Below, piece by piece: positions 4,947-63,415 of a stretch of DNA of 64,000 nucleotides (position 1 is the stretch's first letter; each line of letters starts with the position of its first letter). Origin of the DNA: Streptomyces sp. ADI96-02 (GTDB taxonomy: Bacteria > Actinomycetota > Actinomycetes > Streptomycetales > Streptomycetaceae); contig NZ_ML123034.1 in NCBI RefSeq assembly GCF_003846185.1, positions 1,554,470 through 1,618,469 on the forward strand. Direction: 5' to 3'. Below the pieces are notes generated by a model. That model had not been told where the DNA came from. It saw only the letters and a program-made list of their open reading frames with translations, and did no database searches. A program made the position numbers and the translations under genes.

Positions 4947-5008
4947 GCCGCCGCCTCCCGGCGCTGTGCGGCGTACGCGCGCGTGGCGCGGCCGGCGTCG
5001 GGACCGTC

Positions 5009-5075
5009 GGGACCGTCAGGGCTTGCGGGGCGGGACCGCCAGGCTTGCGGGCCGGGACCGTCAGGGCTTGCGGGC
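5009..5075. repeat. Three tandem ~22-bp repeats overlapping a gene end
   Basis: Units of the form gggaccgtcagggcttgcgg start at 5009, 5032 (with a one-base deletion) and 5054. The third unit contains the stop codon and last codons of the minus-strand membrane gene, so part of its C-terminus (ARKP) is encoded by the repeat. The array lies between convergent genes. Confidence 0.75.
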
Positions 5076-44500: not shown

Positions 44501-44711
44501 CCCGCAGCAGCCTGGTCAGGGAGCGGCGCAGCGCCTGCTCGTCGACCACGCCGTCGAAGGTGACGCGGAAGCTGATGTTGTAGAGGTCCTTGCGCTCCAT
44601 GGCCTCCTGGATGAAGAGGAGGCTGCGCTGGGCGGCGGTGACCGGAAGGTCGGTGTCGGGCGCGGTCGCGGTGCGGGCCGGCGCCTCGGGGCCGGTGGTC
44701 GTCACGCTCAT
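41514..44711 (-). CDS. NRPS module: condensation, adenylation, carrier (C-A-T)
   Basis: The 1,065-aa protein begins with a condensation domain (about 20-440) with IHHSVSDG, the HHxxxDG catalytic motif at 152-158. The adenylation domain (about 460-950) has MFTSGSTGRPKG, GFDVSYQEIFP, LYGPTETHAVT, YRTGDLAL and TANGKIDRVAL. The carrier domain has FFVLGGNSFD (phosphopantetheine on Ser1018). There is no epimerisation or thioesterase domain. The specificity reads roughly D-V-Q-x-C-S-L-A-V-K; the D-V-Q start recalls proline-type codes but the rest does not. The ATG at 44711 overlaps the stop of the free carrier gene. It is the only condensation domain in the window. Confidence 0.93.
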   Translation of the reverse strand: MSVTTTGPEAPARTATAPDTDLPVTAAQRSLLFIQEAMERKDLYNISFRVTFDGVVDEQALRRSLTRLLRVQPALRTEFALDGGVPRARITEPADVALEIRDVTERGAGFAGLVETESRRFAQLVVDLRRAPLCRFALVRGPERSALLCNIHHSVSDGVSMTAFLDELREGYRTSAPGPDPARREQQLAAELAAQVRATDAALAAGEVPRLASAVAAAPATTLYPTPTRPADTAFAGGDLHVLLTTGERQRVEAAARELAVTPFGFLLACYSTLLGQYAGQDTVVVGSPFSTRRTIASHDLCGFFVNTLPLVLPAAAATFDEHCTAVAGVVREAMRYQAVPFDALVAEVAPERVTNRNPLFQCMFAMQDTLPTRIELAPGLTGTVEFVSQEAARFDLWLGATPVDDGLLIELEYDTDLLPAPYAERFLAEYRQLVLAAADEPRAPLGELTRALATRRTPDFRRGHEARAEARGGLLGLVAAAAERDPEHPAVAGPDGTGLTYRELLERTRRAAAGLSERGVRRGHVVAVVPDNLADTVVSMLAVLWCGAAYLPIDTGLPADRLSYMLDHADCTFMIAAASVVPDEPERATVAELEAAGATTRAPEPCDGRDPVYIMFTSGSTGRPKGVLMGQPALTNLLHWQLDELAMGPATRFLQFAPLGFDVSYQEIFPTLAAGGTVYGLGSTDRRDLEEVAALVDRERLTHVYLPVAVLGAFAAAADEAGHTLATVSFLCVSGEQLHLDSRSRRLLDTHDGLTLVNLYGPTETHAVTWHVLPGGPAERPSHVPIGRTLPGVDTYLLGPDGHEAPPGAVGELHFGGICPAQEYVNSPERTEAAFLPAPGGAGRMYRTGDLALRAEDGTLLFLGRRDSQVKLRGHRVELGELETAAERLPAVRAAAAAVHGTGEQAALCLFVLPATGEPLDVPALRGALQQDLPTYMIPRHVLHIDAMPLTANGKIDRVALLRRFEAGELDTAEERPATGDWTPSPAEATVRDLWTKILDNEPTRPDDSFFVLGGNSFDVMRLLGATAEATGVRVPVADFFRSPTVRALAAHLDAAPPSPAAPH

Positions 44712-50060: not shown

Positions 50061-51662
50061 TCAGCAGTCCCCGGCGGTGAAGCGGGCGGCCAGCGCCCGG
50101 CGGTCGGTCTTGCCGTGGGCGGTCACCGGCAGTTCGGCCGGGAAGTGGAACTCGGCCGGAATCATGTAGGCGGGCAGCGTCCGTCCGCAGAACGCGGTGA
50201 GGCGCCCGTCGTCCACGTCGCCGGCTCCCGCCCGCGCCACCACGCAGGCGGCGAGCGCCGGATCGGACCCGTCCCGCTCGCGCACCAGCACCGCGACGGC
50301 CGCCACGTCCTCGTGTTCGAGCAGCCGGCGCTCCACCTCCCCCAGCTCCACGCGATTGCCCCGGATCTGCACCTGCGAGTCCGCCCGCCCGCAGAAGTAC
50401 AGCTCGCCCTCCGGCCCCCGGTACGCCAGGTCGCCGGTGCGCAGGACCAGTTGGCCCGAGCGCGGCTCGGCCGGATCGGGCACCCGGGCCGCCGCCGAGG
50501 CCGCCGGGTCGTCCCAGTAGCCAGTGAAGAGCGCCGGGGTGCGCAGGTGGATCTCGCCCGTCTCCCCCGGCCCGTCGACGAGTCGGCCCGCCGCGTCGAC
50601 CAGCAGCATCTCGGCGCCCCGGTGGGCGTAGCCGATGGAGAGCCGTTCGACGTCCCGCGGCAGCGGGTCGGGCACGTCGGTGAAGGAGCAGGCCATGGAC
50701 TCGGTCGCGCCGTAGCAGTTCACCAGCCGCGCCCTCGGCAGGCGGCGCTGGAGCTCGCGGAGTTCGGCGAGCGGGAACGCCTCCCCGCAGAAGAGCACCC
50801 CGCGCACCTCGGTGAGCGTCTCCAGCACGTGCGGGAGGTGGCGCAGGGCCTGCCGCCAGATCGACGGGACGCCGTTGACCTGGGTGGCCCCGGTGTCGGC
50901 CAGGACCCGCAGGAAGCGGGTGGGCCAGCGCATCAGCGTACGCGGAACGGGGGCCAGGGCCGCGCCGCTGCCGAGCGCGAGGCCGATGTCGAGCAGCGAG
51001 AAGTCGAACTGGAGCGGTGAGGTGGAGGCGACCGTGTCCCCGGGTCCCACGATGCCCTCGGCGCACATGCCCCGGTAGAAGGAGGTGACCGCGCGGTGGC
51101 TCATCACCACGCCCTTGGGGCGGCCCGTGGTGCCGGAGGTGAAGATCATGTACGCGGTGTCGGTCGGGCACAGCTCGCGGCGGCGGCGCACCCGCGGGGC
51201 GGGCGGGCGCTCCGCGGTGAGCCGGCCGCCGCCGAACCGGGCGGTGCCGGTGCTGCGCGGGAGTCCGGTCCGTTTCCCGTCGTCCGCCTGGAGGTGGAGG
51301 GCCGCGCCGGTGGCCTCGATGACGCGGTGCAGCCGCTCGTCGGGCGTCTCGGGGCTGACCGGCACGAAGGGCAGGCCGAGCCGGGAGCAGGCCAGCAGCA
51401 CCGCGAGGGCCTGCGCGGAGGTGTCGGACTCCAGGACGACCCGGTCGCCGATGTCGAGGCCCAGGGAGTCGAGCGCGTCCGCGTAGTCCCGGGCCAGCTC
51501 CGCGAGCCGGCCGTAACTGACCTCGCGTACCTCGCCGTTGGCGATGAACTCGACCACGGCCGGGCTGTCCGGGGCGGTCCGGGCGGCGGCGAGCAGGAAG
51601 GAGTGCAGGAACTCGCTCTGCGCGGGCGGGCGCAGGACGGCGGGTTCGGCGGCGACGGTCAC
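50061..51662 (-). CDS. Stand-alone NRPS adenylation domain
   Basis: The 533-aa protein has MIFTSGTTGRPKGVVMSHR, VNCYGATESMACS, LRTGDLAYRG, CGRADSQVQIRGNRVELGE and the C-terminal lysine in TAHGKTDRRAL. The expected aspartate is present in QFDFSLLD. My rough specificity reading is D-F-L-S-L-C-C-A-C-K, which I cannot assign. The start is GTG at 51662 after GAGGAG. It follows the flavin reductase gene after 143 bp of G+C-rich repeat and precedes the SnoaL-like gene without a gap. Confidence 0.88.
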   Translation of the reverse strand: MTVAAEPAVLRPPAQSEFLHSFLLAAARTAPDSPAVVEFIANGEVREVSYGRLAELARDYADALDSLGLDIGDRVVLESDTSAQALAVLLACSRLGLPFVPVSPETPDERLHRVIEATGAALHLQADDGKRTGLPRSTGTARFGGGRLTAERPPAPRVRRRRELCPTDTAYMIFTSGTTGRPKGVVMSHRAVTSFYRGMCAEGIVGPGDTVASTSPLQFDFSLLDIGLALGSGAALAPVPRTLMRWPTRFLRVLADTGATQVNGVPSIWRQALRHLPHVLETLTEVRGVLFCGEAFPLAELRELQRRLPRARLVNCYGATESMACSFTDVPDPLPRDVERLSIGYAHRGAEMLLVDAAGRLVDGPGETGEIHLRTPALFTGYWDDPAASAAARVPDPAEPRSGQLVLRTGDLAYRGPEGELYFCGRADSQVQIRGNRVELGEVERRLLEHEDVAAVAVLVRERDGSDPALAACVVARAGAGDVDDGRLTAFCGRTLPAYMIPAEFHFPAELPVTAHGKTDRRALAARFTAGDC

Positions 51663-51805: not shown

Positions 51806-52459
51806 TCAGCGGGCCGCGGGATCGACGGGTTCGGCGACCTGGCCGGCCACGCCGTCGAGCAGCACCATCGGCGCGTGCGGCAGGCTGGAGGCGTGGCGCG
51901 CCGTGCCGATCAGCAGGGTGTGGTCGAGGAGGTCGACCGACTCCGACAGGTCGCACACCACCGTGGCCGCGCATCCGTCCAGGACGGGCACGCCGTGCGT
52001 ACGGGAGTGGCGGACCCGGTCGAAGCGGCGGCGCGGATCACCCGTCGCGAACGCTCCGGCGAGCGAACGCTGCTCCCAGGAGAGGACGTTGACCGCGAAC
52101 GCGCCCGACTCGCGGATGTGCGCCAGGGTCCGCCCCGCGGTGCGCAGCGAGACCAGGACGCTCGCCGGTTCCAGGGAGAGGGACAGCACGGCGGTGGCGG
52201 TGCAGCCGGAGGGGCCGTCGGGCGTGGCTGAGGTGATCACGGTGACGAAGCTCGGGAAGCGCGCCATCACCTGCCGGAAGGCGGCCCGGTCCACGCCGGG
52301 CTCCGGCGTCCCGTCCGCGGCCGGACCGTGCCCCGGCGCGGTGGCCGGGCGGTCCCCGTAGGGGGCGGGTGCGTGCGGCGCGGCCCGGTGGCCCGCGCCG
52401 TCGGCGGCCGGCCACGCGCTGACCGGTCCCTCGCACAGGGTCTGTATGTCGACGGTCAT
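51806..52459 (-). CDS. Flavin reductase family protein
   Basis: After a ~50-residue Ala/Pro/His-rich N-terminal extension, the 217-aa protein shows AAFRQVMARFPSFVTVITS, DGPSGCTATAVLSLSLEPASVLVSL, SGAFAVNVLSWEQ and a C-terminal VLLDGVAG, the split-barrel flavin reductase pattern. Such proteins supply reduced FMN or FAD to a partner monooxygenase; none is seen in the window, so the partner may lie outside, or the acyl-CoA dehydrogenase-like proteins may be used differently. The ATG at 52459 lies 14 bp after the upstream adenylation gene. Confidence 0.85.
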   Translation of the reverse strand: MTVDIQTLCEGPVSAWPAADGAGHRAAPHAPAPYGDRPATAPGHGPAADGTPEPGVDRAAFRQVMARFPSFVTVITSATPDGPSGCTATAVLSLSLEPASVLVSLRTAGRTLAHIRESGAFAVNVLSWEQRSLAGAFATGDPRRRFDRVRHSRTHGVPVLDGCAATVVCDLSESVDLLDHTLLIGTARHASSLPHAPMVLLDGVAGQVAEPVDPAAR

Positions 52460-52473
52460 GTGTATCTGCTCCC

Positions 52474-54072
52474 TCAGGCCGCTTGCGGTTGGGTCAGGGA
52501 TGCGAGGAGCACGGCACGGTCGACCTTGCCGTTGGCGTTGAGCGGCAGGGCCCCGGTGAAGGTCACCGCCGCCGGAACCATGTAGGCCGGCAGCCGCAGC
52601 CGCAGCGCGCCCAGCAGTTCCTCCGGATCGCGGGGCGGTCCCGCGCACACGGCGTGCAGGACCGGTTCGCCCCGGCGGCCGGGCACCGGCAGCACCACCG
52701 CGTCGGTGACGTCCCGCTGGCGCAGCAGCAGCGATTCGATCTCGCCCAGCTCGACCCGGTAGCCGTGGATCTTGACCTGGTGGTCGAGGCGGCCCAGGTG
52801 GACCAGGACCCCGTCCGCCCGGCGCACCCGGTCGCCGGTGCGGTACCAGTGCGCGGGCGTCAGCGGCCCGGTGCCGTCGTGCACGGCGTACGGCGGGAGC
52901 GGCGCGCGGAAGCGGCCCGTGTCGTCGGCCGGGTCCAGGTAGCCGGGGAAGCGCTGGCTGCCGCGTACGCACAGCTCGCCGTCGTCCGCCGGGCGTCCGG
53001 CCTCGTCCAGGATCAGGTGCTCCTGCCCGGGGTAGGGGACGCCGATCGGGACGGTCCCGTTGGCGGTGGCCGGCCAGTCCTCCTCCTCGGGCGGCAGCCG
53101 GTACTCGGTCCAGGTCACCGTCATCTCGGTCGGTCCGTAGATGTTCTCGACCGTGCTGTGCGGGGCCGCCGCCCGCCAGGCCCGTGCCTGGGGCAGCTTC
53201 AGCGCCTCGCCGCAGAACAGGCTCCAGCGCAGCGTGGGCATCGAGCCGGGCCGCAGGGCGCGCAGCCGCTGCGCGAGGGCGGCGACGGACGGCACGGAGT
53301 TCCAGTGGGTGATCCGGGCGCGGTTGACGAACCGTACGGGCGCGAGCAGTTCCTCGCGGGTGGGCACGACGAGCGTGGCACCCGTGCCCCACGCCGAGAA
53401 CATGTCGTACACCGACGGGTCGAAGGTGAGGTCGAAGGTCTGCGAGACCCGGTCCCCCGGGCCCGTCCCGTACCGCTGGATCACGTGGCCGAGGTAGGCG
53501 GCGACGTTGGCCTGGGTCACCGGGACGCCCTTGGGGCGGCCGGTCGAGCCGGAGGTGAAGAGGATGTAGGCGAGGTCGTCCGGCGCGGTCCGTCCCCGGG
53601 CGGGCGGTTCGGCCGGTGCGGCGGGCTGCCGCGCGTCGCAGCGCAGCACGGGGACGGGCAGGCCGTCCAGTCCGGGCAGGGCGGCGTCCGCGATGACCAG
53701 GTCCAGGCCGGCGGTGCGGGCGACGTCGGCGCTGCGGGCGATGGGGAAGGCCGGGTTGAGCGGGACGACGGTGGCGCCCAGCCGGGCCACCGCGAGGTAG
53801 CCGGCGTAGGCGAGGACCGTGCGGGAGGCGAGGAGCCCGACGCGCGCGGGACGGCCGCCGTGCCGGGCGACGAGCGCGGCGGCGAGGTGGCCGGCCAGGG
53901 TCTCCAGGGCGCGGTAGCTCAGCTCCCGTCCGTCGGCCTCCAGGGCGGTGCGGGTGTCGCCGTACGTCGCGGCGCTGTCGGCGAACCAGTCGTAGAGCCG
54001 TTTTCCGGTCACCGGTTCCGGGCCGGTCCGGGGCCCGGCCCCGGTCGCGGTGAGGGTCGTGTGCACGCTCAT
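52474..54072 (-). CDS. Stand-alone NRPS adenylation domain
   Basis: The 532-aa protein has ILFTSGSTGRPKGVPVTQ, TFDLTFDPSVYDMFSAW with the amino-group aspartate, NIYGPTEMTVTWTEY, YRTGDRVRR, LGRLDHQVKIHGYRVELGE and NANGKVDRAVL. Rough specificity reading is D-P-Y-S-L-C-I-V-T-K, not assigned. It overlaps the C39-like gene upstream by 4 bp (ATGA, start 54072), which suggests that the two proteins work on the same carrier. Confidence 0.88.
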   Translation of the reverse strand: MSVHTTLTATGAGPRTGPEPVTGKRLYDWFADSAATYGDTRTALEADGRELSYRALETLAGHLAAALVARHGGRPARVGLLASRTVLAYAGYLAVARLGATVVPLNPAFPIARSADVARTAGLDLVIADAALPGLDGLPVPVLRCDARQPAAPAEPPARGRTAPDDLAYILFTSGSTGRPKGVPVTQANVAAYLGHVIQRYGTGPGDRVSQTFDLTFDPSVYDMFSAWGTGATLVVPTREELLAPVRFVNRARITHWNSVPSVAALAQRLRALRPGSMPTLRWSLFCGEALKLPQARAWRAAAPHSTVENIYGPTEMTVTWTEYRLPPEEEDWPATANGTVPIGVPYPGQEHLILDEAGRPADDGELCVRGSQRFPGYLDPADDTGRFRAPLPPYAVHDGTGPLTPAHWYRTGDRVRRADGVLVHLGRLDHQVKIHGYRVELGEIESLLLRQRDVTDAVVLPVPGRRGEPVLHAVCAGPPRDPEELLGALRLRLPAYMVPAAVTFTGALPLNANGKVDRAVLLASLTQPQAA

Positions 54073-55049
54073 CGGGTGGGCGCCTCTCGCTGTAGGGCGG
54101 TCATGGCGTCGATCAGGTCCTCGAATGCCTTCGCCACCACGCCGGGGCGGGGGCGGCCCCGTTCGGCGGAGGTGGCGGCGAAGCGCAGCGAGCGCGGGAG
54201 TTCGCCCCAGGAGTGGGCTGCGGCGTCGGCGGGGGGCGCGGGCGTCCGGCCCCGGCGGACCAGGGAGTCCAGTCGATGGCGCTGGTGGCGGGAGGCGGCC
54301 CAGAGGTCGTCGGCGTGGGCGGCCAGTGCGGCGGGGTCCTCGCCGAGCCGGGCGGCGAGGAACCGCAGCACGTCGAGCGGGTCGGTGAGCCACCGCCCGG
54401 CCGGCGGGCGCTCCGCCGTCCGCGCCTCGCGGGCCAGCCAGCCGTAGTGGCCCGGCTCGGGCAGCTCCAGGGCGCCGCCCAGGGCGTGGACGTCGCGGGC
54501 GCGGTTATGGTACGGCAACTCGCCCACAGGAGTGAGGAGTCGGCGCAGCTCGTCGTCGTCCAGGACGCCGGAGTACGGCAGTTGCTCGCCGTCCGGGAGC
54601 AGGGCGGCGAACCGGTCGGTGACCCGCCACCGGTCGCCGTGGCCCCTCGCGCGCTCCAGCAGCACCCAGTGGGAGACGGCGGAACGGCCGTGGGCTGGCG
54701 ACCAGGGCACGTGCCGGGTGTTGGCGACGGCCAGGACCCGTCCGCGCAGCGCGCTCTCGTGGCGCAGCCCGGCCAGGGCGTCCGCCCAGCGGGCGGCCCC
54801 CCGGTGGACGAGCGGGCCGTCCGGGCCGTCCGTGTCGATACGGGCGTGGTGGCGGAAGGCGAGGCGGCCGTCCGGCAGGTCGGTGCGGACGGCGAGGGCG
54901 ATCGCGTCGGCGAGGCGGTCGGCCGCGTCGGGCCGCTCCGCCTCCAGGTAGGCCACCAGGTTGGCGGTGTAGCAGCTCAGCTCGGGTGCGGCGTCTGCGG
55001 CCCGGTCGGGGCCCTCCGCCCGTGCGGCGGTGTTCGTCGCGGTGCTCAC
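54069..55049 (-). CDS. BtrH/peptidase C39-like protein without carrier domain
   Basis: The 326-aa protein reads ELSCYTANLVAYLEAERPD, then RVLAVANTRHVPWSPAHGRSAVSHWVLL and RWRVTDRF. This gives a Cys-His-Asp triad (Cys26, His127, Asp145) in the order of the papain-like C39 fold. In butirosin biosynthesis BtrH, of this type, transfers an acyl group from a carrier protein to an amine. It is a paralogue of the carrier-fused protein at 58385-59545. The function here is inferred: amide formation or release from a carrier. The GTG start at 55049 overlaps the PPTase stop (GTGA) and has GGGAG upstream; an ATG four codons earlier is possible. Confidence 0.65.
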   Translation of the reverse strand: MSTATNTAARAEGPDRAADAAPELSCYTANLVAYLEAERPDAADRLADAIALAVRTDLPDGRLAFRHHARIDTDGPDGPLVHRGAARWADALAGLRHESALRGRVLAVANTRHVPWSPAHGRSAVSHWVLLERARGHGDRWRVTDRFAALLPDGEQLPYSGVLDDDELRRLLTPVGELPYHNRARDVHALGGALELPEPGHYGWLAREARTAERPPAGRWLTDPLDVLRFLAARLGEDPAALAAHADDLWAASRHQRHRLDSLVRRGRTPAPPADAAAHSWGELPRSLRFAATSAERGRPRPGVVAKAFEDLIDAMTALQREAPTR

Positions 55050-55678
55050 ATCAGCTCCCATGCGCAGCTCAGGGGGGTGTCGGACCGGTCGCGCAGGCTG
55101 CGCCACCGGAAGGTCTTCCATCGGCCGGTCGTCTCTCCGACGGGTACGTCCACGGTCCAGGGGCCGCCCGACAGGCCGCTCCCCTCCGCCTTCACGCACG
55201 CCTCCTGCACGGTCCAGATCCAGGCGAACTCGCGGGCGCGTTCGGCCGGCGGCAGCGCGTCGAGCCGTTCGCGGCCCTGGCGCACGCACTTGCGCACCAC
55301 TCCGTCGCCCAGTTCCTCGGCGGGCAGCTGGATGTCGATGCCGACGGCGCGGCCGATCGCGACGCAGGCGGCGACGTGCCCCCGGTCGTGGGCGATGCTG
55401 ATGCCGAGGTCGGGGCGGTCGGCCAGGCCCGGTTTGCCGTTGGGGCCCAGCGTCACGCGCCCGTCGGCCGCCTCGGGCACGGTGGCGGCGAGCAGTTCGC
55501 GCAGCAGCGCCCGGCCGGCCAGGAACTCCGCCGCGCGCCAGTCGGCCAGTCCGGCGGCGTCCGCGAGGTCGTGGGGGTGGCCCCGGGGCAGGGTGGGGCC
55601 CTGGCGGGTGACGGCCCAGATGCCGGGCTCGAACTCGGTGGCGGCCGTCGCGACGGGGCGGTTACGGGTCACGTTCAC
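55046..55678 (-). CDS. 4'-phosphopantetheinyl transferase (Sfp type), second of two
   Basis: The 210-aa protein has LGISIAHDRGHVAACVAIGRAVGIDIQ and FAWIWTVQEACVKAEGSGL. It is distinct from the PPTase at 39297-39923. The GTG at 55678 overlaps the stop of the acyl-CoA dehydrogenase-like gene by 4 bp, and its own stop overlaps the next start, placing it within the tightly coupled operon. Two enzymes in one cluster may reflect the atypical carriers, or the merging of two older gene sets. Confidence 0.9.
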   Translation of the reverse strand: MNVTRNRPVATAATEFEPGIWAVTRQGPTLPRGHPHDLADAAGLADWRAAEFLAGRALLRELLAATVPEAADGRVTLGPNGKPGLADRPDLGISIAHDRGHVAACVAIGRAVGIDIQLPAEELGDGVVRKCVRQGRERLDALPPAERAREFAWIWTVQEACVKAEGSGLSGGPWTVDVPVGETTGRWKTFRWRSLRDRSDTPLSCAWELM

Positions 55679-56871
55679 GGCGCCAGCTCCGCGAGGAGGG
55701 AGTCGGCGGATCCGGCCACCGCGGACAGGACGACTTCGGTGGCCCCGCCGCCGACGCCCCACAGGGCGGCCTGGGCCCGGGTCCACTGGGCGCCGCCGGT
55801 GGTGAAGCCCTCCGCGCCCTGCAACTGGGCGCAGGCGCCGAGGACGTGCCCGACGGTCTGGGCGGCGGCGGCCTTCAGCAGGGAGGCGGCGGCGGTGTCG
55901 TGGCGGCGGGCGACGCGTTCGGCGAGCCGGTCGGTCAGCGCGTCCAACTGGTGGACGCGGACGAGGCAGTCGGCGAAGCGCTGCCGGACGCTCTCCAGGC
56001 CCCAGAGTGTGCCGTCGCCGAACTTCCTTCCCTGGAGGTGCTGTTGGGTGTGCTTCAACTGGCGGTGGCAGAGGGCGACGGCCCACAGGGTTCCGGTGAG
56101 CCGTTCCACGGCGATGTGGGCGGCGAAAGAGGTCATGCCGCGCCCTACGCGGCCGACGAGGTGGGTGCGCTCCAGGCGTACGCCGTCGAGGCGCAGATGG
56201 CCGGTGCCGGAGCCGTCGAACAGCTGCGAGTCGGCCGGTTCGACGTGTACGCCGGGGGCGGTGGCGGGCACCAGGACCCAGGTGAAGTTGGTGAAGTGGC
56301 CGCCCTCGCGGTGCCGGGCGAGCACCAGGAAGTGGTCGGCGTGGGTGGCGTTGGTGATCCAGCGCTTGACGCCGCTCACCGTGAGGCCGTCCGCCTCGAT
56401 CGCCACGGTGGTGCCCAGCCCGGTGAGGTCCGAGCCGGAGCCCTCGTCGGTGGCGGCGAGGGCGACGACCGCCCGGCCGGCCAGCGCCTCGTCCAGGACG
56501 TGTGCGGCCTGTTCGCCGCCGAGCGTGAGCAGCGGTACGGCGGTGGCGATCTGGACGCACAGGGCGAGCGTGGAGCCGATGCCGGAGACCGCGTCCGCCT
56601 CGGCCATCAGGGTGCGCAGCGCCGGTACGTCGACGCCGGCGGCCGGGTCCGCGCCGGTGTAGGCGGCGCGGAGCCGGCCGGCCGCGCCGAGCGCGGCCCA
56701 CAGGCTCCGGCCGTCGGTGTCGGCGGGCAGGCCCGGGGCGTGGGCCGCGCGCGGCGCGGGACCGGGCGGCGCGAGGGGGCGGGCCAGGGTGAGGAGCGGG
56801 CCGGTGGGCGCGTCGCGCGGGGGTCCTTCGGCGACGTCTCCGGCCGGGGTGTCCGGCGTCCGTTCAGACAA
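55675..56871 (-). CDS. Acyl-CoA dehydrogenase-like protein
   Basis: The 398-aa protein shows ALAATDEGSGSDLTGLGT, a GVKRWITNATHADHFLVLAR block and HIAVERLTGTLWAVAL, the order of motifs in the flavin-dependent acyl-CoA dehydrogenase fold. The C-terminal catalytic segment QLQGAEGFTTGGAQWTRAQ is present. A Pro/Ala-rich 40-residue N-terminal extension precedes the fold. In carrier-protein pathways such enzymes oxidise aminoacyl or acyl groups on a carrier. Start is TTG at 56871, inside the end of the preceding gene by 8 bp. It forms a coupled pair with the next upstream dehydrogenase. Confidence 0.88.
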   Translation of the reverse strand: MSERTPDTPAGDVAEGPPRDAPTGPLLTLARPLAPPGPAPRAAHAPGLPADTDGRSLWAALGAAGRLRAAYTGADPAAGVDVPALRTLMAEADAVSGIGSTLALCVQIATAVPLLTLGGEQAAHVLDEALAGRAVVALAATDEGSGSDLTGLGTTVAIEADGLTVSGVKRWITNATHADHFLVLARHREGGHFTNFTWVLVPATAPGVHVEPADSQLFDGSGTGHLRLDGVRLERTHLVGRVGRGMTSFAAHIAVERLTGTLWAVALCHRQLKHTQQHLQGRKFGDGTLWGLESVRQRFADCLVRVHQLDALTDRLAERVARRHDTAAASLLKAAAAQTVGHVLGACAQLQGAEGFTTGGAQWTRAQAALWGVGGGATEVVLSAVAGSADSLLAELAP

Positions 56872-58069
56872 GGCGCACCTCCGCGTCCATCAGGGTGAGG
56901 CGGCCGTCGGCCTGGTGGAGGCGGTCGTTGCTGTAGTTCAGCGGGGCGGAGCGCAGATCGCGCAGGGCCGCCTCCAGCCGGGTGGCGGAGTCCTTGAGGT
57001 AGCCGTGGCGCAGTCCGACGGCTTCGACGAGCGTGTCGACCGCCGCGTGGCACTCCTGGGAGGCCCCGATCTTCAGGGCGTTCAGGAGCAGTTGCACGCG
57101 CGGGGCGGAGACGTCCGGGGCGGCGGCGACGGCCTGTTCGGTGTGGCGCAGCAGCGCGTGCACGGTGTCGATCTTCTGGCGGGCGGCGGAGAGCCGGCCC
57201 AGCAGCAGTTCGGAGCCGAGGTCGAAGCGGCCCCGGCCGGCCGGGCTGCGCAGGAGCGTCACCACCCGGGACAGGGCTCCGGCGGCCGTGCCGAGCCATG
57301 CGGCGGACCACGCCAGGTGGGCGAGCGGGCCGAAGATCTCGACGGCGATCCGGGAGAACTGGCCGCTCTCGCCGATCACTTGGTGTTCGGGCAGCTGTCC
57401 GGTGAGGCGCAGGGCGACGCTGTGGCTGGCCCGCATGCCCATCGGCTGCCAGTCACCGCTCTGCTCGATGGAGAGCTGGTCGCGGTCGGCGTAGACGAGG
57501 GAGACCTGGCTCGGGGAGGTGGCGTCCGGCGGCTGGACGGTGATGAGGAAGCCGTCGGCGTGCGCGCCGCCCGTGACGATCGGCGCGAACCGGTCGACGA
57601 CCAGGTCGGAGCCGGAGCGGTCGGTGCGGGAGCCGGCGGTCAGCAGGTGCCCGCCCTTGCCCGCCTCGGTGGTGACGGAGGCCAGGTAGCGACGGCCGGC
57701 GGCGATCTCCGGGAGGAGCGTGGCGCGCAGGGCGGGCGAGGCGTGGGCGACGACGGCGGCCACCTGCTGGCAGTGCATGCCGAGGATCATGGCGACGGAC
57801 ATGTCGGCCCGGCCCAGTTCGACGCAGACGTCGAGGAGTTCGCCGGTGCTCGCGCCGAGGCCGCCGTACTCGGTGGGGACGGTCAGGCCGAGCAGTCGGG
57901 TCTCGCGCAGGGCGGCCAGCGCCTCCACCGGGAAGTCGGCGTCGTCGTCGTGCCGGGGCGCGTGGACGGCGGTGACCTCGGCGACGTGCCGGGCCCGCTG
58001 GAGGGGGCTCCGCCCCGCGAAGGGGTCGGCGGCCAGGGTTTCGGGGGCGGTCGGGAGCACGGTGGTCAT
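56864..58069 (-). CDS. Acyl-CoA dehydrogenase-like protein
   Basis: The 401-aa protein has LLGLTVPTEYGGLGASTGELL, LASVTTEAGKGGHLLTAGSRT, GMRASHSVALRLTG and a helical C-terminal half ending SNDRLHQADGRLTLMDAEVRLV. It is only distantly similar to its downstream partner, so the two may form a heteromer or act in sequence. Start ATG 58069 overlaps the stop of the carrier gene by 4 bp (ATGA), which points to a substrate bound to that carrier. Confidence 0.87.
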   Translation of the reverse strand: MTTVLPTAPETLAADPFAGRSPLQRARHVAEVTAVHAPRHDDDADFPVEALAALRETRLLGLTVPTEYGGLGASTGELLDVCVELGRADMSVAMILGMHCQQVAAVVAHASPALRATLLPEIAAGRRYLASVTTEAGKGGHLLTAGSRTDRSGSDLVVDRFAPIVTGGAHADGFLITVQPPDATSPSQVSLVYADRDQLSIEQSGDWQPMGMRASHSVALRLTGQLPEHQVIGESGQFSRIAVEIFGPLAHLAWSAAWLGTAAGALSRVVTLLRSPAGRGRFDLGSELLLGRLSAARQKIDTVHALLRHTEQAVAAAPDVSAPRVQLLLNALKIGASQECHAAVDTLVEAVGLRHGYLKDSATRLEAALRDLRSAPLNYSNDRLHQADGRLTLMDAEVRLV

Positions 58070-58326
58070 GCCGCCTCCGCCGCTGCGGCGTCGGCGTCCT
58101 GCGCGGCCTCGATGGCGCTCCACAGGCTGCCCGCGGTCGCGAAGGTCGCGTCGTTGAGGTCGTCGTCGGCGAGCGCGATGCCGAAGGTGTCCTCGATGGC
58201 GAAGAGCAGTTCGATCGACTGCATGGAGTCCAGGCCCAGTTCGCGCAGGACCGAGTCCTGGCGGAGCTCCTGTCCGTGCAGGTACTTGAGGAAGGGCGCC
58301 AGCAGTTCGGTGAATCGGGTGTCCAT
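58066..58326 (-). CDS. Free acyl carrier protein
   Basis: The 86-aa carrier has LRELGLDSMQSIELLFAIEDTFGIAL, with the phosphopantetheine serine at 34. It is acidic and closely resembles discrete amino-acid carrier proteins. AGGAG precedes the ATG at 58326. It lies between the C39-carrier fusion (58-bp gap) and the dehydrogenase pair. Confidence 0.9.
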   Translation of the reverse strand: MDTRFTELLAPFLKYLHGQELRQDSVLRELGLDSMQSIELLFAIEDTFGIALADDDLNDATFATAGSLWSAIEAAQDADAAAAEAA

Positions 58327-58384
58327 CGCGATGCTCCTAGAGGCTGGGAAGGGTGGGGAGGGGTGCGCGGGGGCGCGCGGGATG

Positions 58385-59545
58385 TCAGCGGGCCGCCCCG
58401 GCGGCCGTGACCAGGGCGCAGAGGCCGTCGAGCCGGTGCAGGTTCTCGGGGAGGAGGTCGTCGGGGTCGAACTCGACGCCGAACCTCTCCTCCAGGGCTT
58501 CGACGACCTCGACGACCTCGAAGGAGTGGAAGCCGGGCAGCGCGGTCAGCGCGGGCGCGGCCCGCACCTCGTCGGCGGGGACGCCGACGACGTCGGCGAC
58601 CACCTCGGCCACGGCGGCGCGGACGGGGTCCGGCGTCCCGAAGAGCTCCCGGTCGGCGTGGAGGGCGGCGGCCACGTCGGGCAGCAGTCCCCCGGGTTCG
58701 GGCCGGCCGCGCTGGACCCGCCGGAACGCCAGGAACGCCTGCTCCGCGAGGCGGCCCAGCCGCAGCACGTGCGCGGCGGTCCGCTCGTCGAGAGGGCCGG
58801 GCCGGGTGGCGAGGAAGGCCGCGTGCAGGGCGCGGGAGCGGGCCAGCAGCCAGGTCTCGGTGGTGAGCTGGTCCAGGGCTGCCACCCGGTCGGGGTGGGC
58901 GGCGTAGGCGGCGACGTACTCCTCGATCCCCGCGTGGTCGCCGTACGGCTCCGCCTCGGGGGCCGGGACCGGGTCGAAGCGCAGCACGAGCGAGGAGACC
59001 GGCAGCGTCGACCAGTCCGTCACCCACCGCACGGGGGCCGCGACGCCCCACGGGGTGTGGCTGGAGTAGGCGTCGACGACGAGGGCCCGCTCGCCGTGCG
59101 GGGCCACCAGGTAGCTGTGTTCCATGTGCCGCTGCCCGTGGTACGGGAGCCACGGCATGGCGAAGGAGTCCGCGACGACGTACAGGCGGCCGTGCTCGCG
59201 GGCGAGTCCGGCCAGGGCGTCGGGCTGGACGGCGGTCCACCGGGCGGTCTCGGCGAGGCCGGCCGAGGCCGCCGTGGCGAGCTGGTCCTCCAGGGCCGGT
59301 TCGACCGTGGGCAGGCCGTGCGGGCCGGGCCGGGGACGAAAGCGCAGGGCCGCGCCGAGGGCGAGGTGGGCGTCCGGTCCGTGCAGGTCGTCGGCGAGCT
59401 GGGCCAGGTTCGACTGGACGCAGTCGAGCCGCCCGGCGCGCTCCGCCGACAGGACCGCCGCCGTGTCCGGGCCACTCGCGGCGGCCGTCGGTGGGACCGT
59501 CGGTGGGGCCGTCGGTGTGGCCGCGGCCTCGGTGACGGCGGTCAT
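58385..59545 (-). CDS. BtrH/peptidase C39-like domain fused to a carrier domain
   Basis: The 386-aa protein has a low-complexity Ala/Pro/Thr start, then RLDCVQSNLAQLADDLHG (Cys42), MPWLPYHGQRHMEHSYLV (His143) and ALVVDAYSSHTPWG (Asp158), the C39-like triad. After a helical linker a carrier domain ends the protein: LPGFHSFEVVEVVEALEERFGVEF, in which Ser341 stands in HSFE instead of the usual DSL. It starts at ATG 59545 in an ATGA overlap with the TrpB-like gene. The fusion suggests that the thiol domain acts on its own tethered acyl group. The role is inferred, and the non-standard serine motif leaves carrier function to be shown. Confidence 0.68.
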   Translation of the reverse strand: MTAVTEAAATPTAPPTVPPTAAASGPDTAAVLSAERAGRLDCVQSNLAQLADDLHGPDAHLALGAALRFRPRPGPHGLPTVEPALEDQLATAASAGLAETARWTAVQPDALAGLAREHGRLYVVADSFAMPWLPYHGQRHMEHSYLVAPHGERALVVDAYSSHTPWGVAAPVRWVTDWSTLPVSSLVLRFDPVPAPEAEPYGDHAGIEEYVAAYAAHPDRVAALDQLTTETWLLARSRALHAAFLATRPGPLDERTAAHVLRLGRLAEQAFLAFRRVQRGRPEPGGLLPDVAAALHADRELFGTPDPVRAAVAEVVADVVGVPADEVRAAPALTALPGFHSFEVVEVVEALEERFGVEFDPDDLLPENLHRLDGLCALVTAAGAAR

Positions 59546-60918
59546 CGCGGTCCTCCCGCGGCTCCCGCGAGGAGGGCGGCGGCGGGGTGCGCGCCGGGGG
59601 CGGCGGGGCTGAGTCCGGACACCGCGGCGAGCAGGGCCTGCTCGCTCGGGGCCTCGTCGCCCAGCTCGTCGTTGAGCAGCTGCTCGTAGGCGGCCAGGTC
59701 GAGGTAGCCGCTGCCGCTGACGCAGACCAGGACGCCCTTCTCGGCCCGCATGCCGTCCGCGCCGGAGGTGGCGAGCTTGGCGGCGGCGGCGAGCGCGTGG
59801 CCGGACTCCGGTGCGGGGAGCACGGTCTCGTGCCGGGTGAGCAGGCGGCCGGCGTCCAGTGCCTCCTGCTGGGTGACGGCGGTGGCGTCGATGTCGCCGG
59901 TGTGGCGCATGGCGGAGATGAGTTTGGCCGCCCCGTGGAAGCGCAGCCCGGCGGAGTGCGCGTCCGGGATCGGGTAGTCGCTGCCGATGGTGTACATCGC
60001 CTCCAGCGGGCCGGTGCCGGTGGCGTCGGTCTTGTCGTACGCGTACACGCCCCGGGTGAGTTTGGGGGCCGTCGAGGACTCGGCCGCGACCAGGCGGGGC
60101 GGCGTCGCGCCGGTGGCGGCGGCCTCCGCGTGGAAGGGCAGGGCTATGCCGCCGAAGTTGGAGCCCGCGCCGACCGCGCCGACCACCGTGTCGATGCCGG
60201 CGTCCAGCTCCGCGAGCTGCGTCTGCGCCTCCAGGCCGATGACGGACTGGTGGAGGATGCTGTAGGTCTCGCCGCTGCCGATGCAGAAGGCCACATCGTC
60301 GTGGTCGGAGGCGTACTCGACCGCTTCGCCGATGGCCAGCGCCAGGCTGTTGCCGATGCCGTCGGCGCGGGTTCCGGAGACCCGGGTGAGGCCGCTGGGG
60401 CTGGAGTGGATCTCCGCGCCGAGCATGCGCATGAGCACCCCGCGGTACGGCTTGCGCCGCAGGCTGGACTCGACCATGAACACCCGGCAGCGCAGCCCGA
60501 ACAGCGCGCAGGCAGCCGCCATCGCGGTGCCCCACTGGCCGGCGCCGGTCCCGGTGACCAGTTCCCTGACCCCGGCCTTCTTGTAGTAGTACGCCTGCGC
60601 CAGAGCCGTGTTGAGCTTGTGGCTGCCGGAGATGTTGCCGCCCTCGTACTTCATGTAGACGGGCACCCGGGCGCCGATGGCCCGCTCGAAACCGGTGGCG
60701 CGCCACAGCGGCGTCGGCCGGAACCTGGCGTAGGCGTCGAGGACTTCGGCGGGGATGTCCCAGTACTCGCGCTCCAGCACGCTCTGCCGGACCAGCTCCA
60801 TCGGCAGGTTGACGCCGACGCCGGTGCGGCCGGTGGTCTCGGGGGTGAGGTCGGGCGGCAGCGGGACGGAGAGGTGGGGCAGGGTGCTGCGCCAGCGGGT
60901 GGGCAGGGCGGCGGTCAT
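59542..60918 (-). CDS. TrpB-like pyridoxal phosphate enzyme
   Basis: The 458-aa protein matches the TrpB-like (TrpB2) group: ARFRPTPLWRATGFERAIGARVPVYMKYEGGNISGSHKLN, with the PLP lysine at 101, then GTGAGQWGTAMAAACALFGL and VVGAVGAGSNFGGIALPF. The phosphate-binding segment is near CVSGSGYLDL. The housekeeping trp genes are not here, so it is probably a specialised lyase or synthase using serine or a related amino acid. Overlaps of 4 bp on both sides (start 60918; stop overlapping the C39-carrier start) link it to the carrier proteins. Confidence 0.88.
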   Translation of the reverse strand: MTAALPTRWRSTLPHLSVPLPPDLTPETTGRTGVGVNLPMELVRQSVLEREYWDIPAEVLDAYARFRPTPLWRATGFERAIGARVPVYMKYEGGNISGSHKLNTALAQAYYYKKAGVRELVTGTGAGQWGTAMAAACALFGLRCRVFMVESSLRRKPYRGVLMRMLGAEIHSSPSGLTRVSGTRADGIGNSLALAIGEAVEYASDHDDVAFCIGSGETYSILHQSVIGLEAQTQLAELDAGIDTVVGAVGAGSNFGGIALPFHAEAAATGATPPRLVAAESSTAPKLTRGVYAYDKTDATGTGPLEAMYTIGSDYPIPDAHSAGLRFHGAAKLISAMRHTGDIDATAVTQQEALDAGRLLTRHETVLPAPESGHALAAAAKLATSGADGMRAEKGVLVCVSGSGYLDLAAYEQLLNDELGDEAPSEQALLAAVSGLSPAAPGAHPAAALLAGAAGGPR

Positions 60919-61229
60919 CGGACGTCCTCCGCACCGGAGACGACGACGTCGATCAGGTCGCCGACGGTCTGGAAGGACCGGCCGACGAACAGGTCGTCGG
61001 GCAGGGTGATGGAGAGCTCGTCCTCGATGCGGACCAGCATGCCGACGAAGCCGAGGGAGTTGACGCGCAGCAGGGTGCCGACGAGCGGTTCGGCGTCGTC
61101 GATGGCGTCGGGGCCGATGGACAGGCGGGACTCCGCGATGACGACGCGTTTGACGGTGTCGGCCACCGCCGCGCGGTCGAGCCGCTGGGCCGTCGGTGCG
61201 GGAGCCTCGGTCGGGTGGGACTGGATCAT
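60915..61229 (-). CDS. Free acyl carrier protein, atypical motif
   Basis: The 104-aa protein has TLLRVNSLGFVGMLVRIEDELSITL, a carrier helix in which the usual DSL is NSL (Ser58). The serine is present, so loading is still possible. It overlaps the TrpB-like gene start by 4 bp. GAGAGG precedes the ATG at 61229. A 174-bp G+C-rich gap without a recognised feature separates it from the ProA-like gene. Confidence 0.82.
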   Translation of the reverse strand: MIQSHPTEAPAPTAQRLDRAAVADTVKRVVIAESRLSIGPDAIDDAEPLVGTLLRVNSLGFVGMLVRIEDELSITLPDDLFVGRSFQTVGDLIDVVVSGAEDVR

Positions 61230-61403
61230 GACAACCTCTCGAAGATCGGTACGGGACGTGACGGACGTGCGGGAGGGTGTGCGCGGGCGGCGGGTGGGGG
61301 GGCGGCCTGCCGTGGGGGAGGCGGCCTGCCGTGGTGGGCGGCTCGGTCGGGTGCGGGCGCGGCTCGGCGGTGGCCGTGCGACCGCGGTGCGGGCCGGCCG
61401 GTG

Positions 61404-62681
61404 TCAGTCCCGCATCTGGCCGTCGGCCTCGATCACCCAGGAGCTGGTGACCAGCGCCCCGAGGGTGACCGGGCCGCGGACGTGCAGGCGGCCGGTGGCG
61501 ATGGCGATCTCGGAGCCGAGGCCGAGCTTGGGTCCGTCGTGCAGGCGCAGGGATCCGTTGACGACGACCATGGCCGCGTCGACCCGGCGGGTGAACTCCC
61601 GGGCGACCTCGCGGTCCCGGGCGACGATGCCCTCGGTGTGCTGCGAGCCGTGGGCCCGGACGAACGCGGCGGCGGCCTGCGGGCCGGAGACCGGGCGCAG
61701 GGCGATCACCGGGTCGAGGAACTCCCGCCCGGTGTCGTGCGGTTCCAGCGGTTCGGTGCGCCAGGGGCTGTCCTCGCGGGGCGCGGGGGCCGGTACGGAG
61801 GCGTCCAGGCGCACGGTGAGGTCGGCCCGCTCGCGTTCGCACGCGTCGAGCAGGGCCGCCAGGTACTCCTGGGCGATCTCCTCGTCGACCAGGACCATCT
61901 CCACCGAGGTGCAGCCGGCCGGTTCGGGGATCTTGCTGTTCAGGGTGGCGCGGGCGGCCAGTTCCAGGTCGGCGCTGCGGTGCACGTACAGGTGGTTGAC
62001 CCCGCCGCCGCTGGCGATCAGCGGGATGGAGCTGGAGCTGCGGCAGTAGTCGATGAGGGAGGGGCTGCCGCGCGGGATGAGGACGTCGACCTGGTCGGGG
62101 CGGGCCAGTACGCCCTTCATCAGGGAGCGGTCGGGGTCGTCGAGGACGGTCACGAGGCCCGGCGGCAGCCCGGCCGCCCGCAGCGCCGCCTTGACGGCCG
62201 TGGCGAGGGCGGCGTCGGTGGCGGCGCTCTCCTTGCCGCCGCGCAGCAGGACCGCGTTGCCGACCGCGACCGGGAGGAGCGCGCCGTCGACGGTCACGGT
62301 GGGCCGCGCCTCGTAGATCATGAACGCGACGCCGAGCGGTTTGGGGACCCGGCGCAGGACGCCCCAGTCGCCGGCCGGGATTCCCGGTGCGTCGGCGAGG
62401 ACGGTGGCCAGTTCCGAGGCGACGGCCTCGGTGAGCCGGACCATGGCCGCGAGATGGGCGTCGGTCAGGCGCAGCCGGGTCACCAGGGTGGGCGGGAGGC
62501 CGCGGGCCTCGGCGCGGGCGAGGTCGGTGCGGTTGGCTTCCTGGATGTCGGCCCAGTGCGCGGTGAGGTGGGCGGCGAGTTCGTGGCAGTAGCGGGTGTA
62601 GGCGGGGTCGCCGGTCGGCGGGGCGGCGTCGAGGGCCGCGCGTGCCTCGTTGAGTATCTGCTCGGGCATGTCGGCGTTCAC
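61404..62681 (-). CDS. Glutamate-5-semialdehyde dehydrogenase-like protein (ProA family)
   Basis: The 425-aa protein has the ProA signature VPKPLGVAFMIYEARPTVTVD, GNAVLLRGGKES, LIPRGSPSLI and the catalytic cysteine in PEPAGCTSVE. ProA reduces gamma-glutamyl phosphate to the semialdehyde, giving pyrroline carboxylate. No proB kinase is adjacent, and the gene sits in a biosynthetic operon, so the substrate may be a carrier-bound or phosphorylated intermediate. The start GTG at 62681 overlaps the SDR stop by 4 bp; another GTG is one codon earlier. Confidence 0.87.
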   Translation of the reverse strand: MNADMPEQILNEARAALDAAPPTGDPAYTRYCHELAAHLTAHWADIQEANRTDLARAEARGLPPTLVTRLRLTDAHLAAMVRLTEAVASELATVLADAPGIPAGDWGVLRRVPKPLGVAFMIYEARPTVTVDGALLPVAVGNAVLLRGGKESAATDAALATAVKAALRAAGLPPGLVTVLDDPDRSLMKGVLARPDQVDVLIPRGSPSLIDYCRSSSSIPLIASGGGVNHLYVHRSADLELAARATLNSKIPEPAGCTSVEMVLVDEEIAQEYLAALLDACERERADLTVRLDASVPAPAPREDSPWRTEPLEPHDTGREFLDPVIALRPVSGPQAAAAFVRAHGSQHTEGIVARDREVAREFTRRVDAAMVVVNGSLRLHDGPKLGLGSEIAIATGRLHVRGPVTLGALVTSSWVIEADGQMRD

Positions 62682-63415
62682 CACATGAACTGGCCACCGT
62701 CAATGATCAGTTTCTGACCATTGAGGTAGGTGGCGGCCGGGCCGACGAGGAATTCGAGCGCGTCGGCGACGTCCTCGACGGTTCCCATGCGGCGGGAGGG
62801 GATCTCGTCCAGGGTCTGCTCCATGCGCTCCGGGTCGTCCAGGCGCCAGCGGGTGCGCAGCTCCTCGGTGTCGATCATGCCGGGGATCAGGCAGTTGACC
62901 CGGATCGTGGGGGCCAGCTCCAGGGCCAGGCACTTGGTGAACTGGAGCAGACCGGCTTTGCTGGCGCAGTAGTTGACGCCGTCGACACGGGGCCGGATGC
63001 CGGTGGTCGCGCCGATGTTGACGATCGAGCCGCCGCCGGCCGCGAGCATCGCCGGGGCGAGGGCCCGGGTCAGCCAGAACGGGCCGGAGAGGTTGGTGTC
63101 GAGGACGGCGCGCCAGTCCTCGTCGCTCATCTCCAGGAACGGCCGGTCGATGTTGCGTCCGGCGTTGTTGACCAGGACGGCGGGCGTGCCGTGCTCGGCC
63201 AGGACGCGGGCGGCGGCGTCGGCCACGGCCGAGGCGTCGGCGAGGTCGACCTGGAGGGCGGTGAGCCCGGCGTCGTTCGCCTCGGCCTTCTCGGCGGACT
63301 CCCGGTCGTGGGCGTAGAAGGCGACGACCCGGTGGCCCATGCCGATCAGCCGCCGGCTCAGGGCCAGTCCGATTCCTCGTGTTCCGCCGGTGACAACGGC
63401 AAGTGGTTCCGGCAT
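62678..63415 (-). CDS. Short-chain dehydrogenase/reductase (FabG-like)
   Basis: The 245-aa protein has VVTGGTRGIGLALS, LVNNAGRN, NYCASKAG (Tyr149 and Lys153) and the C-terminal LNGQKLIIDGG. The usual catalytic serine in the NISS block is replaced: the sequence is NIGATTG, with Ala and a neighbouring Thr. It may use the threonine or be altered in activity. The ATG at 63415 follows GAGGAG. It is the first gene of the long minus-strand operon. Confidence 0.87.
   Translation of the reverse strand: MPEPLAVVTGGTRGIGLALSRRLIGMGHRVVAFYAHDRESAEKAEANDAGLTALQVDLADASAVADAAARVLAEHGTPAVLVNNAGRNIDRPFLEMSDEDWRAVLDTNLSGPFWLTRALAPAMLAAGGGSIVNIGATTGIRPRVDGVNYCASKAGLLQFTKCLALELAPTIRVNCLIPGMIDTEELRTRWRLDDPERMEQTLDEIPSRRMGTVEDVADALEFLVGPAATYLNGQKLIIDGGQFMW

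Follow-up and report, generated by a model that had tools for sequence, protein, structure and literature searches.

Sequence and predicted fold of B1 and B2

The stretch of DNA analyzed here, called the window, comprises 64,000 nucleotides of the chromosome of Streptomyces sp. ADI96-02 (G000:C1:1554470-1618469) and contains a biosynthetic gene cluster that extends from about 36.6 to 63.4 kb. Two proteins encoded on the minus strand of this cluster, B1 and B2, are the subject of this study. An initial annotation had described them as BtrH/C39-like proteins and candidate amide-forming enzymes; it had placed both open reading frames and numbered both triads correctly. B1 (386 amino acids; 58385-59545) consists of two parts. 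The catalytic part, residues 1-303 (58637..59545), is predicted to have a papain-like fold with C-terminal helices, and its triad is formed by Cys42 (codon 59422-59420), His143 (59119-59117) and Asp158 (59074-59072). Residues 304-386, together with the stop codon (58385..58636), are a fused carrier domain (PF00550, E 5.2e-7), which has its serine, Ser341, at 58525-58523. B2 (326 amino acids, GTG start; 54069..55049) is a second papain-like protein, without a carrier, and its triad is Cys26 (54974-54972), His127 (54671-54669) and Asp145 (54617-54615).

B1 and B2 are homologous. BLASTP aligned them over 83 residues (E 1e-8), and hhalign over 276 columns with a probability of 98.8% (E 9.9e-17), including an RGRP stretch in the C-terminal helices that is common to both. 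The triad was invariant in 24/24 aligned homologues of B1 and in 20/20 of B2; row L079, which has a broken frame, was omitted from the latter alignment (L and a number denote a locus). Larger sets comprised 91 rows for B1 and 63 rows for B2. In the covered rows of the larger B1 set, Cys42 was found in 87/87, His143 in 89/89 and Asp158 in 89/90 cases, and the values for B2 were 62/63 (Cys26), 63/63 (His127) and 62/63 (Asp145). The three exceptions (L159, L145 and L079) lie on draft contigs and are apparently truncated or frame-broken. The triads named in the initial annotation are thus conserved in the smaller alignments and in nearly all rows of the larger ones, and because they are invariant across the 24 and 20 homologues they are not a product of chance. 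Further conserved residues were seen in the C-terminal part, where R275, R276 and R279 of B1 are invariant and R297 in the RGRP stretch of B2 is nearly invariant. That these arginines serve carrier docking is a guess; arginines 312, 316 and 324 of CcbD are critical in carrier recognition, according to an excerpt of PMC12945683.

Family searches gave no name for the catalytic part of either protein, neither with NCBIfam (E up to 0.1) nor with Pfam (E up to 1). Up to E 1, B1 and B2 matched neither the condensation domain of nonribosomal peptide synthetases (NRPS; PF00668) nor peptidase C39 nor BtrH_N (PF14399), and a C39-like family, DUF3335, matched one relative of B2 with E 0.17. Neither B1 nor B2 is fused to an ABC transporter. 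BtrH_N gave weak matches with 3/24 members of the B1 alignment (best E 0.012) and with 3/20 members of the B2 alignment (best E 0.0005). When the alignments were compared by hhalign with seven PF14399 proteins only, E 2.2e-5 and a probability of 76% were obtained for B1, and E 4.7e-4 and 33% for B2. Cys, His and Asp were in register in these alignments, the Cys not being invariant among the seven proteins. As judged from the sequences, BtrH is probably a distant relative of B1 and B2.

Structures were predicted with AlphaFold2 from the homologue alignments (pLDDT 88.8 for B1 and 91.4 for B2), and the models were compared with solved structures by Foldseek and VIA. Both models have a papain-like fold with a C-terminal helical part, as had been anticipated. 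At E <= 0.001, Foldseek found 12 matches for B1 and 19 for B2, and all of them were CtaG, CcbD or the AziU2-U3 complex. The top match of both models was a chain of the AziU2-U3 complex (E 1.8e-6 for B1 and 1.7e-9 for B2); from the chain length, the matching chains of 8gs1 and 7wuw are assumed to be AziU3 and not AziU2. The VIA comparison gave Z 16.5-17.6 for B1 and 17.4-18.2 for B2 with the same three proteins. The best values for B1 were obtained with CcbD 9dks (Z 17.6, 257 residues, 3.2 A), 8gs1_D of the AziU2-U3 complex (Z 17.4, 257, 3.4 A) and CtaG 9qvl (Z 17.2, 257, 3.4 A), and for B2 with 8gs1_D (Z 18.2, 268, 3.6 A), CcbD 9dks (Z 17.9, 264, 3.6 A) and CtaG 9qvl (Z 17.8, 271, 4.3 A). Among the 50 VIA matches listed, other papain-like proteins reached at most Z 10.7 with B1 (PCAT1 and PeiR were best) and at most 7.8 with B2. 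The designation "BtrH/C39-like" fits the papain-like fold and a probable distant sequence similarity to BtrH, but the closest folds are CcbD, CtaG and AziU3, and the C39-like peptidase 3erv reached just Z 7.3 with B2. According to the PDB titles, the residues mutated in CtaG are C11, H128 and D144, in the same order Cys-His-Asp as in B1 and B2. The spacings within the triad are similar: from Cys to His 117 residues in CtaG and 101 in both B1 and B2, and from His to Asp 16 in CtaG, 15 in B1 and 18 in B2.

The carrier fused to B1

Ser341 lies in the motif GFHSFE, and the carrier domain of B1 matched acyl carrier proteins with Z 10.6-12.7 (VIA). The fused carrier was already part of the initial annotation, which had pointed out HSFE as a non-standard serine motif. 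The carrier stood up to analysis, and the motif turned out to be less odd than it had seemed: the residue preceding the serine varies in the relatives (H, G, N, D, S or T), while the serine was kept in 18/18 fused carriers of the smaller set and in 77/77 rows of the larger set that have a carrier. A degenerate carrier was ruled out by the latter result.

The distribution of the fusion was analyzed with 91 loci, which remained when 103 loci with a B1 catalytic part (window included) had been cleared of repeats on the basis of the last 150 residues. The tree omits three of them as too short. On the remaining 88 rows the carrier was fused in 75 and split in 13, and the fewest changes that account for this pattern are four. 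A separate B1-type carrier gene was found for 12 of the 13 unfused rows. It adjoins B1 in five of them (L148, L149, L155, L076 and L157), and in seven (L064, L065, L066, L068, L110, L091 and L126) it lies in a divergent operon behind the genes of a KamA-family aminomutase and a pyridoxal phosphate (PLP) enzyme. The catalytic part and the carrier thus stay together even when they are not fused.

Composition and spread of the B1 cassette

The genes around B1 and B2 are also encoded on the minus strand. Between the two lie the free-standing carrier protein ACP2 (58066..58326; PF00550), two proteins with an acyl-CoA dehydrogenase (ACAD) fold and a phosphopantetheinyl transferase (PPTase; 55046..55678; PF01648). 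Of the two ACAD-fold proteins, ACADa (55675..56871) resembles MbtN and prolyl-carrier dehydrogenases, and ACADb (56864..58069) also resembles DszC-type flavin monooxygenases. B2 is followed by the free-standing adenylation enzyme A2 (52474..54072), with 8k4r and 6akd as nearest solved relatives, a StyB/HsaB-like flavin reductase (51806..52459; PF01613, E 5.9e-31) and a second adenylation enzyme, A1 (50061..51662). On the other side of B1, a TrpB2-like PLP enzyme (59542..60918; NF009057, E 6e-151), the AmcB-like free-standing carrier protein ACP1 (60915..61229; PF00550), a ProA-like aldehyde dehydrogenase (61404..62684; NF001221, E 5.3e-104) and a FabG-like short-chain dehydrogenase/reductase (SDR; 62678..63415; PF00106, E 4.3e-51) are encoded. 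The first three of these (59542-62684) form a sub-cassette, each of them being present in 42-43 of the 91 B1 loci.

A C-A-T NRPS module (41514..44711; PF00668, PF00501 and PF00550) contains the sole condensation (C) domain among the genes scanned, and the motif HHSVSDG of this domain is intact. The shortage of condensation domains that had been noted before was confirmed: the genes scanned between 36.6 and 63.4 kb encode a single C domain versus four adenylation and five carrier domains. The window also encodes an alpha/beta hydrolase (36631-37569), for which macrolide esterase models were nearest and prolyl aminopeptidase gave a weak match; it is a candidate VinJ-like deprotecting enzyme.

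The gene content of the 91 loci was then tabulated, using identity cut-offs chosen by us of 42, 42 and 38% over at least 150 residues for A1, A2 and A', a VinN-like loader. Some loci end at contig ends or flanks, so the numbers of absent genes are upper limits. A core was apparent that consists of ACP2 (83/91), ACADa (83), ACADb (80), PPTase (79) and A2 (75); ACP2, both ACADs, PPTase and A2 occurred all together in 63 loci. B2 was found in 58 loci, ACP1 and ProA in 43 each, TrpB and the flavin reductase in 42 each, and the SDR in 30. The divergent operon occurs at seven distinct places (10 loci, of which three are repeats). A2 and ACADb both lie behind the B1-type carrier in six of the seven, in the seventh (L066) ACADb follows the carrier before the stretch ends, and ACP2 stays with B1 in six, the exception being L091. 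This arrangement suggests that the B1 carrier is the partner of A2 and ACADb, and ACP2 that of A1 and ACADa, neighbourhood being no proof of partnership. ACADa possibly has a role like that of BolQ, i.e., a desaturation of the dehydro-beta-alanine type, by analogy with the bolagladin pathway, in which deletion of bolQ, encoding an ACAD-fold protein, left beta-alanine instead of dehydro-beta-alanine (an excerpt of PMC7756342). ACADb is, from its sequence, a candidate dehydrogenase or DszC-type monooxygenase, and the flavin reductase is encoded nearby. In four loci (L139, L144, L154 and L158), B1 homologues and A2-like genes occurred with neither ACAD in the stretch, perhaps a variant without an oxidation step.

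The loaders tie the B1 cassette to carrier-bound beta-amino acids. A1 matched the putative ATP-dependent b-aminoacyl-ACP synthetase 7dq5 with E 1.4e-191, and 5jjq (E 1.6e-188) and 5jjp (1.5e-176), which we take to be CmiS6 and IdnL1, were close behind, while the best multi-domain NRPS chain reached 1.1e-90. By sequence, A1 belongs with the beta-aminoacyl-ACP synthetases. A' was nearest to 3wvn (E 4.1e-109), presumably VinN. A1 was present in 25 of the 91 loci and A' in 45, and no locus had both. The same exclusion was seen for the enzymes that may supply the substrate: KamA was found in 29 loci and a decarboxylase nearest to BtrK (1.9e-55) in 47, never together, and the gene of the decarboxylase was present in 45/45 A' loci. 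In the incednine pathway, a PLP decarboxylase converts beta-glutamate to 3-aminobutyrate, and a radical-SAM enzyme likely forms beta-glutamate from glutamate, according to an excerpt of PMC11284099.

At the cut-offs used, no BtrK-like gene was found in the cluster of the window, and the window itself encodes no source of a beta-amino acid. A KamA-family gene, however, lies 1.8 kb beyond the right end of the window and is followed by a class I/II PLP enzyme (L175:2805-4196 and 4189-5454); the two are 73% and 70% identical to the respective pair of the Streptomyces lydicus locus L133. The KamA-family match (G000:C1:1620346-1621359) reached 119.6 bits, which is below the TIGR00238 cut-off of 199.2. 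The cluster thus extends beyond the window, and an MFS transporter, the aminomutase and the PLP enzyme are found past its right end (L175:1320-5454). The S. lydicus locus (L133:918-9890) and its relatives represent a second type of cluster on the same core, which includes a C domain, an ATP-grasp protein, a carbamoyltransferase, an aminomutase and a PLP enzyme; the carbamoyltransferase occurs in 18/91 loci.

The spread of the family was analyzed with several genome sets. In a family set of 394 genomes, the own genome included, B1 was matched in 25 (cut-off E 1e-10; one of them, G075, matches the carrier only), B2 in 21 (cut-off E 1e-6) and both in 17. Only two of the 396 genomes of the phylum set matched, that of the window itself and another from the same genus. 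Named genomes were scanned as well, and the best 80 of 88 relatives, with 79 distinct loci, came from Streptomyces, Amycolatopsis, Saccharothrix, Saccharopolyspora, Micromonospora, Salinispora, Actinomadura and others. The B1 gene is at times plasmid-borne, as homologues were found on the Streptomyces plasmids NZ_CP109002.1, NZ_CP059899.1 and NZ_CP070262.1; these three copies are annotated just as hypothetical protein or acyl carrier protein. A similar cassette (L102) lies on a contig labelled Burkholderia multivorans WS-FJ9, which could be due to contamination or transfer.

Proposed reaction of B1 and B2

To our knowledge, few papain-like carrier-dependent transferases have been described, namely BtrH, CcbD/LmbD and CtaG. 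The closest parallel to B1 is CtaG, the peptidyl transferase of closthioamide biosynthesis (9quz, 9qvl and others), which shares the fold with B1 and B2 over 254-271 residues (Z 16.5-17.8), the Cys-His-Asp order and, as proposed for CtaG, a reaction with two carriers and a beta-amino acid acceptor. CtaG is proposed to transfer hydroxybenzoate from the carrier CtaH to tri-beta-alanine on the carrier CtaE (an excerpt of PMC6772006). The differences are that the identity in the aligned parts is only 6-8%, that the solved CtaG chains of 305-312 residues leave no room for a fused carrier, and that an ATP-grasp enzyme is the proposed beta-alanine loader in the closthioamide pathway. CcbD and LmbD (7yn1, 7yn2, 9dkr and 9dks; Z 17.4-17.9) share the fold and the catalytic Cys, and their ping-pong reaction starts from an acyl group on a carrier and yields an amide, according to an excerpt of PMC12945683. 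In contrast to B1, they have a Cys-His-Glu triad and an amino sugar as acceptor, the carrier is separate in the solved complexes, and the identity is 13-15% (VIA). BtrH of the butirosin pathway is an ACP:aminoglycoside acyltransferase with an N-terminal family close to C39 and C70 (PMC10318531). It resembles B1 and B2 in a probable distant similarity, the triad in register and a carrier-based side-chain logic with BtrK, but it transfers to an aminoglycoside, B1 and B2 stay below its Pfam model, and BtrK has no counterpart in the window cluster at the cut-offs used.

The pathway context was compared as well. The beta-amino acid starter pathways of macrolactams (vicenistatin, incednine and hitachimycin) share with the cassette a beta-aminoacyl loader (A1 or A') and a candidate VinM-type A2, and incednine also a KamA-family gene. 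Unlike these pathways, the cassette contains no polyketide synthase or VinK-like acyltransferase among the genes scanned, and it has two ACAD-fold enzymes and the papain-like B1 in addition. The bolagladin pathway (BolO, BolN, BolC and BolQ) also combines a beta-aminoacyl carrier with an ACAD-fold desaturation enzyme, but its N-acylation is proposed to be performed by KAS III homologues and not by a papain-like enzyme (both points from an excerpt of PMC7756342).

Based on the predicted models, B1 and B2 are probably carrier-dependent acyl (peptidyl) transferases of the papain fold and not proteases. We are highly confident that the cysteine performs a carrier-dependent acyl transfer. From the fold, the conserved triads, the carrier serine and the gene set we infer a donor, an acceptor, an order of steps, an amide rather than a thioester as product, and a role for each carrier. 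Cys42 of B1, activated by His143 and Asp158, would accept an acyl or aminoacyl group from a carrier as an enzyme thioester, with ACP2 as the likeliest donor. With this group, B1 would then N-acylate a beta-amino acid on a second carrier, perhaps its own (Ser341), and would thus combine, in a papain-type enzyme, the functions of an NRPS condensation domain and its acceptor carrier. The KamA-type aminomutase and the PLP enzyme just past the window would supply the beta-amino acid, A1 would load it, and a second small amino acid would be activated by A2. Oxidation of the carrier-bound group would fall to ACADa, ACADb and the flavin reductase, and B2 would perform a second transfer, e.g., to ACP1 or to an amine. 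This second transfer looks optional, because B2 is present in 58/91 loci. This CtaG-like scheme is the simplest one that uses all parts, and it would relieve the shortage of condensation domains. As a whole, with the roles given to A1, A2, the ACADs and B2, we lean towards it by a narrow margin; for an amide as the product of B1 the chances appear even, and the own carrier as acceptor is plausible but somewhat doubtful. The earlier observation was confirmed and its interpretation partly supported: nothing against it came from the fold, which is predicted to be papain-like, or from the triads, which are conserved. Amide formation by B1 or B2 is a putative step, and A2 may account for part of the shortage without them.

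A2 is central to the main alternative, in which B1 and B2 are carrier-to-carrier transacylases that move groups from thioester to thioester in the place of VinK, while the amides are made by a VinM-type A2 and the single C domain. With single domains, A2 matched 8k4r (E 7.2e-95, 322 bits) and 6akd (3e-92, 313 bits) best, which are presumably VinM and IdnL7, and the gramicidin synthase chain 6mfy reached a similar E-value from two summed domains, the better of which had 187 bits. VinM is an amide-forming adenylation enzyme that couples Ala, Ser or Gly with a beta-amino acid on a carrier, no C domain being involved, and in vicenistatin biosynthesis VinK then shifts the dipeptide to another carrier, according to an excerpt of PMC11284099. 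A2 occurs in 75/91 loci, and the fused carrier of B1 could be a ready acceptor also for a transacylation. However, CcbD and CtaG, the closest folds with a described reaction, are reported to make amides, and the view of A2 as amide-forming depends on the presumed identity of 8k4r and 6akd and on similarity. This division of labour is possible, though not what we expect. B1 or B2 might also act as BtrH does and deliver a finished side chain, with the fused carrier as donor, to an amine, either that of a small acceptor molecule or one on the NRPS product. The BtrK-like decarboxylase in 47/91 loci and the distant BtrH_N similarity, in which the triad residues align, would agree with this, but no acceptor genes, e.g., for an amino sugar, were recognized among the genes scanned, and the BtrH_N model of Pfam was reached by neither protein of the window, which makes such a role improbable.

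The AziU2-U3 complex, as top Foldseek match of both models, raises the question of ring formation, i.e., an intramolecular reaction of B1 or B2 on a carrier-bound or free substrate. AziU3 of azinomycin biosynthesis (8gs1 and 7wuw; 15-20% identity) acts, unlike B1 and B2, in a complex with AziU2 and has a ring-forming role. Acyl transfer agrees better with the fused carrier, the invariant Cys-His-Asp and a context rich in carriers, and ring formation is very improbable. Ordinary C39-like peptidases, which would act in peptide processing or in the removal of a protecting residue, have the same superfamily fold, but there was no Pfam match to C39, the closest folds are biosynthetic and B1 is fused to a carrier; the chances of this explanation are negligible, and the family searches together with the fold ranking led us to dismiss a role as C39 peptidase or protease.

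Several results weigh against the CtaG-like scheme for B1. Searches of the PDB by sequence (single B1, single B2 and a B2 profile, not a B1 profile) matched no chain of CcbD, CtaG or AziU3 and gave no credible hit to either catalytic part, and the triad was assigned from alignments and not from atomic coordinates. AziU3, one of the top fold matches, forms an aziridine and not an amide, so the fold does not fix the reaction. In addition, neither A1 nor A' was found in 21/91 loci (nine with KamA, two with the decarboxylase and ten with neither), and neither ACAD in 8/91 loci within the stretch covered; some of these loci are cut short, and some look like other types. Five A1 loci had no KamA inside the stretch used, the window among them, whose KamA lies just outside. 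In one unfused row, L075, which lies at a contig end, no B1-type carrier was seen. Lastly, A2 itself may, to judge from its sequence, make the amide and leave a transacylation to B1.

None of the papers listed in one open-access library dealt with the B1 cassette, a weak negative, as subscription papers were mostly outside the scope of the search. Enzymes of this kind have been described before; what seems to be new is the fusion to a carrier, the link with beta-amino acids and the distribution. It is a tentative idea that B1 is a self-contained condensing module that acylates a beta-amino acid on its own carrier, and that B1-ACP2-ACADb-ACADa-PPTase-A2 together with swappable loaders form a portable assembly line, which works without a C domain and, across mycelial actinobacteria, yields beta-amino acid units that are N-acylated and probably unsaturated or oxidized. 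The B1 family, with its 91 loci and a carrier fused in most of them (75 of the 88 on the tree), links the papain fold to carrier-bound beta-amino acids. It offers a handle for the genome mining of peptides that are built with little NRPS condensation, and B1 makes it testable whether the papain fold replaces a condensation domain within one polypeptide.

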